From: Sulfuricaulis sp.
GTDB taxonomy: Bacteria; Pseudomonadota; Gammaproteobacteria; Acidiferrobacterales; Sulfurifustaceae
Direction: 5' to 3'
Assembly (NCBI GenBank): GCA_030650525.1
Contig: JAUSDQ010000193.1
Coordinates: 1-48,370 of the forward strand
Length of the DNA: 48,370 nt
Positions 44,972 through 48,370 of the stretch are shown piece by piece (the stretch's first letter is position 1; every line of letters begins with the position of its first letter). The notes under the pieces were generated by a model. It was not told where the DNA came from, ran no database searches, and saw only the letters and a list, made by a program, of their open reading frames with translations. The translations under genes and the position numbers were made by a program.

Positions 44972-45844
44972 ATGTTTGAACAACTGGGTCTCATCGGCTG
45001 TGGCTTGATGGGCGGCTCCTTTGCGCTGGCGCTACGGCGTGCCGGGCTGGTCAAAAGGGTGGTCGGTTACAGCAAGTCACCCTCCACCACGGAGCGAGCG
45101 CGCCAGCTTGGCATCATTGACGTCGAGGCCCCTTCCGCGCTGCTGGCCGTCTCGGGCGCCGATATTGTCCTGATCGCCGTCCCCGTGTCGGCCACCGAAG
45201 CCACCTTCAAGGCCATCAAACACCTGGTGACGCCGCAGATGCTGGTCATGGATGTCGGCTCCACCAAGCGTGATGTGATTGATGCCGGTCGCCGTGCCCT
45301 GCGCGAACAACTCGGCTCCTTCGTGCCGGCCCACCCAATCACCGGCAAGGAAGTCTCGGGCGTGGAACATGCGGATGTCAACCTATACACCGGCGCGCAG
45401 GTGATTCTCACGCCGATTGACCGCACCCTTCCGACCCAACTTCAGAAAGCGGTCGATGTCTGGACCGCGCTGGACTGCCGCGTGGTCCAAATGTCGCCCG
45501 AGTCACACGACGCGGCATTTGCAGCCGTCAGTCATTTGCCGCACCTGATTGCATTTGCGGCCATCAACGCCATCTCTGGTCAATCGCAGGGCAATGACTA
45601 CCTGTCGCTGGCCGGCCCCGGCTTTCGCGACTTCACCCGCATTGCCGCAAGCGACGCCAAAATGTGGCGCGACATCATGATTTCCAACCGTGAAGAGTTG
45701 CTGGCGCAATCAAAAATTTTCCAGCGCAACCTCCAGGCGCTGGAACTCATGATCGCCAACAGCAACAGCGACGCCTTGGAGGGCCTGATCGAACAGGCCA
45801 GCCGCACCCGGGCCAACTGGCGCATGGTCAAGAATCAAGAATAA
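44972..45844 (+). CDS. tyrA: Prephenate dehydrogenase
   Basis: A 290-residue prephenate/arogenate dehydrogenase for Tyr synthesis. The Rossmann motif is [14 protein letters not shown] at the N-terminus; [20 protein letters not shown] and HPITGKE (near 129) are family signatures, with the catalytic His in the latter. GAGGAAG precedes the ATG. Its stop TAA overlaps the aroA start (TAATG), so the two are translationally coupled. Confidence 0.95.
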
Positions 45845-47850
45845 TGTTTTCCACCGCATTTCTTGACATCCCGCCGCTCGCGGCAGCCGGTGGCACCATC
45901 GTGCTTCCGGGCTCGAAAAGCATTTCCAACCGCGTACTGCTGCTGTCCGCCCTGAGCCAGGGCACGACCACCGTGCACGATCTGCTGGACTCCGACGACA
46001 CGCGCGTCATGCTCGACGCCTTGCACCAGCTCGGCTGCGGCGTGCGGCAACGCGGCAGCAGCGTCGAAATCGACGGCCTGGGCGGCCAGCCGGGCCAGCG
46101 CAAAGCCGATCTGTTCATGGGCAATGCCGGCACCGCGATTCGCCCGCTCACCGCGGCACTGGCGGTGATGGGCGGCGACTACGAACTAAGAGGCGTCCCG
46201 CGCATGCACGAGCGCCCAATCGGCGATCTGGTGGATGCGCTGCGCCAGCTCGGTTGCCACATTGACTACCTGGGACAAGAGGGTTTCCCCCCGCTGCGCA
46301 TTGGCCAACCCCGCCTGTCGCTGGACGCGCCAATTCAGGTGCGGGGCGATGTGTCGAGCCAGTTCCTCACCGCGCTGCTGATGGCGCTGCCGCTGGTCGC
46401 CCAGCGGGATATTGTCATTGAGGTAGTGGGCGAGCTGATTTCGCGCCCCTACATTGAAATCACGCTGAACCTGCTTGCGCGCTTTGGCATCCGGGTGGTG
46501 CGCGAGGGCTGGCAACGCTTCACCATTCCCGCCGGCAGCCAGTTCAAGTCACCCGGCACGCTGCACATCGAGGCCGACGCCTCGTCTGCCAGCTACTTTA
46601 TAGCGCTTGGTGCGATAGCAACGGGGACGAGCAGTCAAGATAGCATCCGAATCGAGGGGGTGGGCGCGGATTCCATCCAGGGCGACATCCGCTTCATCGA
46701 GGCCGCGCAAATGATGGGCGCGAAAGTGCTCACCGGCCCCAACTGGCTGGAGGTGTCACGCGGCAGCTGGCCGCTCAAGGCCATCGACCTGGATTGCAAC
46801 CACATCCCCGACGCGGCGATGACGCTGGCCGTGATGGCCTTGTATGCCCAGGGCAGCACGACGCTGCGCAATATTGCGAGCTGGCGCGTCAAGGAAACCG
46901 ACCGCATCGCAGCCATGGCCACCGAACTGCGCAAACTTGGCGCCACGGTCGAGGAAGGCGCTGATTTCATTCGTGTGACCCCGCCGGCCTCCCCCTCCGA
47001 CTGGAAAGCCGCCAGCATTCACACCTACGACGACCACCGGGTGGCCATGTGTTTTTCGCTCGCCGCCTTCAACCCGGCCGGCCTGCCCATTCGCATCGAA
47101 GACCCGAAGTGCGTGGCCAAGACCTTCCCCGACTATTTCGAGGCGCTGTTCAGCCTGGTGCAGACACCGGACAGCGCCATTCCTGTGATTTGTGTAGACG
47201 GCCCGACCGCCTCGGGCAAGGGCACGCTGGCAGCGGTTTTGGCGAAAGAGCTGGGCTACCATTTTCTGGATTCCGGCTCGCTCTACCGCATCACCGCCCT
47301 CGCGGCCTCGCAGGCCGGTTTGACGCTGACCGCTTCGGATGAGCTGGCGATTGCGGCGCTGGTTCAAACCCTGTCCATTGAATTCACCGATGGCCGGGTG
47401 CGGCTCAATGGCAGCGACGTGAGCGACACCATCCGCACCGAAGAGGCCGGCATGAACGCCTCCAGGGTTTCCGTCCTGCCAAGGGTCCGTCTGGCGCTGA
47501 TTGAACTGCAACACGGCTTTCGCCAGTTGCCCGGACTGGTCGCCGACGGGCGCGACATGGGAACCATCATCTTCCCCGAGGCCTCGCTCAAGGTGTTTTT
47601 GACCGCCAGCGCCGAGCGGCGAGCGGAGAGGCGCTATAAACAATTGATTTCAAAGGGAATTTCGACTACACTCCCATCTCTTCGCGCTGATCTGGAAGCA
47701 CGCGATGCACGGGATTCATCCCGCAGCGTCGCACCGCTCAAACCAGCGCAAGATGCCCGGTTACTGGACAACTCGGATCTGACGGTTGAAACATCGGTCA
47801 ATCTGGTGTTGGACTGGTGGCAGGACAGACAGCCCTTCAGAGCAATCTGA
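45844..47850 (+). CDS. aroA-cmk: Fused EPSP synthase-cytidylate kinase
   Basis: A 668-residue two-domain protein. Residues 1-440 are EPSP synthase ([47 protein letters not shown]); this step of the shikimate pathway feeds PheA and TyrA. From about 446 it is cytidylate kinase ([20 protein letters not shown], the DSGSLYR CMP site and [12 protein letters not shown] near 565). The linker is only a few residues. aroA-cmk order is the usual adjacent order in betaproteobacteria, here as one frame. It is a common fusion in Comamonadaceae, to my knowledge. The class I motif has Ile in [10 protein letters not shown] where E. coli has Met. Confidence 0.94.
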
Positions 47851-47994
47851 CGGACTAAAAAGCAAAATCCTCTGGATTTTGCGTCGGTCCACACAAGCCT
47901 TCTCGCGCTGCTCAAGCGCACCGCTTGTGTGGTTCAACAAACTAACCCGCGGATAAAACCGCAAATTAAACTGCGGTTCTTACCGCATCAAAAA
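47851..47994 (+). promoter_or_regulatory. Structured rpsA leader
   Basis: The 144-nt gap before rpsA holds several stems: GCAAAATCC/GGATTTTGC (47862-47882), CCACACAAGC/GCTTGTGTGG (47889-47932) enclosing GCGCT/AGCGC, and then ACCGCA (47958-47963), TGCGGT (47972-47977) and ACCGCA (47982-47987). The central TGCGGT can pair with either flanking copy, so two hairpins exclude each other; the downstream one sits 7 nt before the start codon and would cover the weak ribosome site. S1 is known to autoregulate through rpsA leader folding in enterobacteria; whether this leader is related is inference. Confidence 0.55.
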
Positions 47995-48370
47995 ATGTCA
48001 GAATCTTTTGCCGCCCTATTTGAAGAGTCCTTGACACGCACCGAAATGCGTCCAGGCGAAGTCATCACCGCCGAAGTGGTGCGTATCGAACACAGCTTTG
48101 TCGTTGTCAACGCGGGACTCAAGTCCGAGGCCTACGTGCCGCTTGAAGAATTCAAGAGTGACAAGGGCGAAATCGAAGTCCAGGTTGGCGACTTCGTGTC
48201 GGTGGCCATTGGTTCCATCGAAAACGGCTACGGCGACACCATTCTGTCGCGCGACACCGCCAAGCGTCTGGCTTCCTGGATGAGCCTGGAAAAAGCCCTG
48301 GAAACCGGCGAATTCGTCACCGGCACCACCAGCGGCAAAGTCAAGGGTGGCCTGACCGTCTTGGTCAATG
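47995..48370 (+). CDS. rpsA: 30S ribosomal protein S1 (partial, 5' end)
   Basis: The first 125 codons of ribosomal protein S1, cut by the window edge. It reads MSESFAALFEESLTRTEMRP and continues into the first S1 repeat (GEVITAEVVRIEHSFVVVNA, YVPLEEF, VGDFVSVAIGSIENGYGDTI). S1 has six S1/OB repeats and is about 560 residues long in this group, so more than three quarters lie outside. It binds mRNA on the 30S subunit. There is no clear Shine-Dalgarno site, as is normal for rpsA. Confidence 0.97.
   Translation, partial: MSESFAALFEESLTRTEMRPGEVITAEVVRIEHSFVVVNAGLKSEAYVPLEEFKSDKGEIEVQVGDFVSVAIGSIENGYGDTILSRDTAKRLASWMSLEKALETGEFVTGTTSGKVKGGLTVLVN

Follow-up and report, generated by a model that had tools for sequence, protein, structure and literature searches.

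What does the short stretch in front of rpsA contain, and could it control the synthesis of ribosomal protein S1? This question is raised by the 3' end of the window (the whole stretch of 48,370 nt of DNA analysed here), where 144 nt separate two genes on the plus strand. The upstream one is a fused aroA-cmk gene (bifunctional EPSP synthase/cytidylate kinase, 45844-47850), an open reading frame that matched NCBIfam PRK11860.1 with 1213 bits against a cut-off of 943. The downstream one is rpsA (30S ribosomal protein S1, 47995-48370), with its ATG at 47995; it runs off the window, and the NCBIfam 30S ribosomal protein S1 models identify its product as the S1 N-terminus. The leader studied here lies inside the intergenic stretch, directly 5' of rpsA and after cmk, which is also the location of the autogenous rpsA leader of Gammaproteobacteria. 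Together with 66 coding nt it folds at -70 kcal/mol (z = -5.06), and none of 200 dinucleotide shuffles was equally stable. No sigma-70-like promoter was found nearby between the co-directional genes and no sense-strand terminator-like site near the leader, the three such sites found all being on the minus strand. A GTG at 47929 opens a frame (47929-47994) that continues in frame into rpsA. A longer rpsA start from this GTG was considered and dropped, because L032, judged by eye, is out of frame there.

The genome bin holding the window's contig (G000:C188) has a second rpsA, on C240. Over the N-terminus, S1 of same-genus genomes is about 54% identical to that of the window, and some Rhodoferax S1 proteins are 100% identical to it. 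Judged from sequence, the contig is probably a Comamonadaceae contaminant within another organism's bin.

By scanning genome contigs we obtained 80 rpsA loci (L031-L110), mostly from Comamonadaceae; with the window this gives 81 leaders, all distinct in sequence. An SD sequence, called as AGGAA within the last 20 nt before the rpsA start, was present in 52 leaders and absent from 29, i.e. the window and 28 relatives. Positions 47886-47964 of the window form a strongly covarying RNA structure, conserved in evolution and shared by Rhodoferax-like bacteria with their relatives, consisting of a long hairpin (P1), the linker UUCAACAAACUAACC and a second hairpin (P2). P1 (47889-47932, plus strand) has an outer helix (47889-47898 with 47923-47932), a pyrimidine internal loop and an inner GCGC/GCGC stem (47905-47908 with 47916-47919); it is backed by the alignment A1, by pair counts and by independent flips on the tree. 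The single-stranded linker TTCAACAAACTAACCC (47933-47948, plus strand) stands out by near-invariant A1 columns and by enrichment of AAC..AACC, and P2 (47949-47962, plus strand; GCGG-ATAAAA-CCGC) by changes on both sides of all five of its pairs in A1. Fold prediction adds an optional 5' hairpin, P0 (GCAAAATCC/GGATTTTGC, 47862-47882, plus strand); by eye and with no formal count, similar hairpins occur in some relatives lacking an SD and are absent from others.

A1 is a plain, structure-free MAFFT alignment of 25 no-SD leaders over 90 clean columns, leaving out four that carry an insert (L080, L081, L083 and L084). In these four related leaders the insert, of about 13 nt, is on the 3' side of P1 and resembles GGUUCAYACC. 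For the structure as a whole (ten pairs in P1, four in the inner stem, five in P2), 93.1% of the cells in A1 are paired and 13 of the 19 pairs are double-changed. The double-changed cells number 80, compared with 25.8 in shuffles, none of 500 shuffles reaching as high, and sliding the partner by one to three columns lowers pairing to 27-45%. The near-invariant unpaired letters are those of the internal loop and the linker. A tree built from the upstream protein (78 of the 81 rows, three with a cut upstream gene being left out) requires at least 69 orientation flips between purine-pyrimidine and pyrimidine-purine, each of them a change on both sides of a pair: 52 in P1, one in the inner stem and 16 in P2. 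These were counted in a second alignment (A2), using only those of its 79 leader rows that have a tree row. Since A2 was made to fit the structure and nine of its rows come from outside rpsA leaders, the main weight is placed on A1.

A covariance model of the core (R1) found the leader immediately 5' of rpsA in 79 of the 81 sources (E <= 0.067; the exceptions are L086 and L097), and in 54 of the 56 sources outside its training set; the two weakest leader matches, L058 and L078, are near in E-value to the best match outside a leader (E = 0.11). Of seven genomes searched in full with R1, G041, G042 and G043 had the rpsA leader as their only strong match, while the other four gave weak matches only. 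The L110 leader, missed in this search, was matched in that of the 81 sources. In having a covarying, conserved RNA structure 5' of one ribosomal-protein gene it resembles the leaders of S15, S4, L1, S2, S6-S18 and others as a class (PMC10931766, PMC2704228). It differs in that rRNA mimicry is not expected here, since S1 is not known to be a primary rRNA binder.

Anti-SD pairing energies range from -4.2 to -7.0 kcal/mol in the SD set and from +0.8 to -5.4 kcal/mol in the no-SD set, in which L036, L052, L080 and L083 (-5.0 to -5.4 kcal/mol) lie inside the SD-type range. The start in the window pairs with -2.9 kcal/mol, which is also the median for 472 20-mers from other positions in such leaders, and that of E. 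coli rpsA with -2.4 kcal/mol; the window's start is SD-less, as in E. coli. Most SD-type leaders have a further hairpin domain just 5' of the SD, within the last ~70 nt before the ATG. An example at L049:2935-3000 shows a conserved AAAAAC/GGAAACC internal loop and a GCAAUGGUGC-like tip, and ends in the SD. In an alignment of 33 of the 52 SD-type leaders (A3, 31 distinct rows, the 19 left out being partly odd domains and partly near-duplicates), 89.0% of the cells are paired and 11 of 17 pairs are double-changed, with 62 double-changed cells against 13.4 in shuffles and none of 500 as high. At E <= 0.009 the corresponding model recovered 45 of the 52 SD-type leaders, among them 12 outside its training set, and not one of the 29 leaders lacking an SD. 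It found no match below E = 0.2 in 88 rpsA loci elsewhere in the order, and the domain was seen in one of 120 order-level genomes, adjoining the start listed for that genome's rpsA. On the upstream-protein tree the SD and no-SD states need two changes. Most simply, therefore, the Rhodoferax-like lineages of the window would have lost the SD and its domain together, once or twice.

The linker pattern AAC[ACT]{0,4}AACC, which was chosen after seeing the sequences and whose shuffles control for composition only, occurs in 53 of the 81 Comamonadaceae leaders (shuffled mean 9.7), in 32 of 85 other order-level leaders (3.1) and in 18 of 58 more distant ones (1.8). The order-level set derives from 88 Burkholderiales loci, of which two gave no start and one, L121, was removed before the count; in the distant set the ATG closest to the S1 N-terminal motif served as the start, which probably puts some starts too far downstream. 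In 80 leaders the pattern has a density of 4.53/kb, 26 times the 0.172/kb of the flanks. In 89 further sources R1 gave nine matches at E <= 1, one of them firm (L121, E = 0.00016) and the rest weak, some of the weak ones falling in rpsA leaders. In E. coli an AACAACC stands at -58 with a hairpin on each side, i.e. the order hairpin, GUUAAACAACCCC, hairpin, and the window shares this arrangement of hairpins set apart by A/U-rich single-stranded stretches, with a linker of the AACAACC type. R1 gave no match to the E. coli leader (L150) at E <= 1, so common descent is not proven, and a hairpin-linker-hairpin plan common to beta- and gammaproteobacterial rpsA leaders is suggestive only.

Boni 2001, Skorski 2006 and Tchufistova 2003 are the key papers on the autogenous control of rpsA. 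According to passages of a review (PMC10931766), S1 is the autogenous repressor of rpsA, the initiation region of which is specifically folded and has no canonical SD in several gammaproteobacterial families; free S1 competes there with S1 bound to the 30S subunit, and turning the weak SD of E. coli rpsA into a canonical one abolishes repression. We give an about even chance to the leader being the betaproteobacterial counterpart of this system, with a putative S1 feedback site. In that case it would serve both as the rpsA translation initiation region and as an autogenous operator. The 30S subunit would be recruited through its own S1 on the single-stranded linker and the A-rich start region, both of them kept open between P1 and P2, and under S1 excess free S1 would take the same site and block 30S entry, as in E. 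coli. We favour this mechanism because the window's leader fits the review's description in its place, the absence of an SD, the order of hairpins and the linker. The likeness extends to the same gene, the place after cmk, the SD-less start in the window's clade and the succession of hairpin, UUAAACAACCCC-like linker, hairpin and start. The leader differs in its distinct P1 with inner GCGC stem and pyrimidine internal loop, in the missing R1 match to E. coli, and in that the SD-bearing additional hairpin domain is present in most Comamonadaceae; regulation is here a prediction. The 52 SD-bearing leaders of the 81 count against the SD-less E. coli model for those relatives, which, since a canonical SD abolishes repression in E. 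coli, need another arrangement. The four no-SD leaders whose anti-SD pairing reaches -5.0 to -5.4 kcal/mol also speak against it, as does the nested fold predicted for the window (see below). A wider history, which we hold to be possible though rather unlikely, is that the short single-stranded AAC..AACC between hairpins is an old site of S1-dependent 30S entry and feedback common to beta- and gammaproteobacterial rpsA mRNAs, that Comamonadaceae added the SD domain, and that Rhodoferax-like lineages lost it and returned to S1-only initiation.

A different reading was offered in the preliminary description, namely a translational switch in which TGCGGT (47972-47977) alternates between two copies of ACCGCA (47958-47963 and 47982-47987) and toggles access to the start. 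The hexamers are exact and both pairings can form, the downstream ACCGCA ends 7 nt before the rpsA ATG, and two larger stems (P0 and P1) do precede them, as described. Translational control is indeed plausible, given a conserved, covarying, structured rpsA leader; the mutual exclusion is what relatives do not conserve, which also separates the leader from translational riboswitches with mutually exclusive hairpins, for all that the alternative pairing is possible in the window. Nor does the second pairing appear to hide the initiation region: there is no SD to hide, and the mean unpaired probability of the start region is 0.64 in the window, against 0.68 on average in no-SD leaders. The extra hairpin that the third hexamer makes, P2' (TGCGGT-TCTT-ACCGCA, 47972-47987, plus strand), is lineage-specific. 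It occurs in nine of the 29 no-SD leaders, all inside one clade of 18 rows of which the other nine have none, and the third hexamer is absent from the remaining 20, including the window's nearest relative, L032. For the window alone a nested alternative fold, which disrupts P2, is predicted at 97% and lies 2.3 kcal/mol below the tandem hairpins. The cross-pairing is predicted with a probability of 0.97 for the window; of the eight relatives with the hexamer, L042 has 0.60 and the remaining seven do not exceed 0.31; among the nine P2' leaders, a weak test by their number, the cross-pairing has no double-changed pair and the local hairpins have two. P2 is supported independently by the larger leader set. 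When aligned by eye, P2' and P2 are alike (AACC-YGCGG-loop-CCGCA), suggesting that P2' is probably a tandem copy of the older P2; it would then be a later duplication with no conserved role. Because two neighboring hairpins with similar arms already predict three hexamers, the repeat alone is weak evidence of a switch. With its patchy hexamer, its lack of cross-pairing double changes and its low cross-pairing in relatives, a conserved three-hexamer switch was rejected, failing also by the refuting condition that the preliminary description had set for it, and we find toggling by these hexamers barely credible, although the alternative fold favored in this one sequence may be of importance here.

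Other roles for the leader have to be set against S1 feedback as well. A ribosome standby site or constitutive translation enhancer, which keeps the linker and the start open for high rpsA expression and involves no feedback by S1, would fit the start predicted to be mostly open (0.64 and 0.68, as above) and the conserved, unstructured linker. An open site alone needs no P1 with a constrained internal loop and an inner GCGC stem, however, and according to PMC10931766 E. coli rpsA is as a rule under feedback; we regard such a role as unlikely. A role of P1 in processing or stability, as a target of RNase III/E or as a 3' block by which the aroA-cmk and rpsA transcripts are separated and stabilized, seems distinctly unlikely to us: P1 is a long helix, and the genes on either side run in the same direction with no sigma-70-like promoter seen close by, but it is not helix length only that is conserved, the most conserved sequence being that of the internal loop, the inner stem and the linker, and P2 and the SD domain covary as well. 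The leader might also be an operator with a ligand other than S1 alone, such as S1 and S2 acting as a pair, or Hfq together with an sRNA on the linker, whose AAC-rich single strand suits further RNA-binding proteins too. Leaders of ribosomal-protein genes usually have the encoded protein as ligand, however, and in the three genomes where R1 matched strongly nothing comparable turned up at any other gene. This reading seems very improbable to us, even with S2 requiring S1 as companion repressor on rpsB (PMC10931766).

The leader with P1, linker and P2 adds an RNA family that has no entry in Rfam 15. No Rfam 15 family matched the window, and none reached its gathering score in 16 loci of relatives; at E <= 1, ten loci gave only two matches, far below the gathering scores. 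Rfam 15 has no rpsA leader family for the E. coli leader either. Full-text searches, seen as titles and abstract openings and with many journals outside their coverage, returned no description of a betaproteobacterial rpsA leader, and rpsA is absent from the text of PMC7247131 (20 new ribosomal leaders) and of PMC2864571 (104 motifs). S1 lacks a strict sequence preference, and what is said of the way it recognizes its own mRNA is based on leaders from Gammaproteobacteria. Self-recognition can be approached by comparison when a betaproteobacterial leader is well defined and sister lineages differ in having the SD domain. If the reading of gain and loss of the SD domain is true, these lineages would also be a natural test of SD-dependent versus S1-dependent control of the same gene.

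Lastly, a broad search of 200 genomes, in which only 23 candidates per genome are scored, matched 103 at E <= 0.01. Twenty of these matches, mostly low-scoring, were inspected: nine are at rpsA and 11 elsewhere, for which reason 103 is not a count of rpsA leaders, and a wide distribution of the motif in other genes was likewise rejected. Of these 11, nine have a coding stretch in common, which proved to be antisense rpoD in the one identified, L181. The antisense strand of this conserved rpoD stretch (L180-L183 and others) mimics P1 at about 25 bits, which calls for caution in motif searches.
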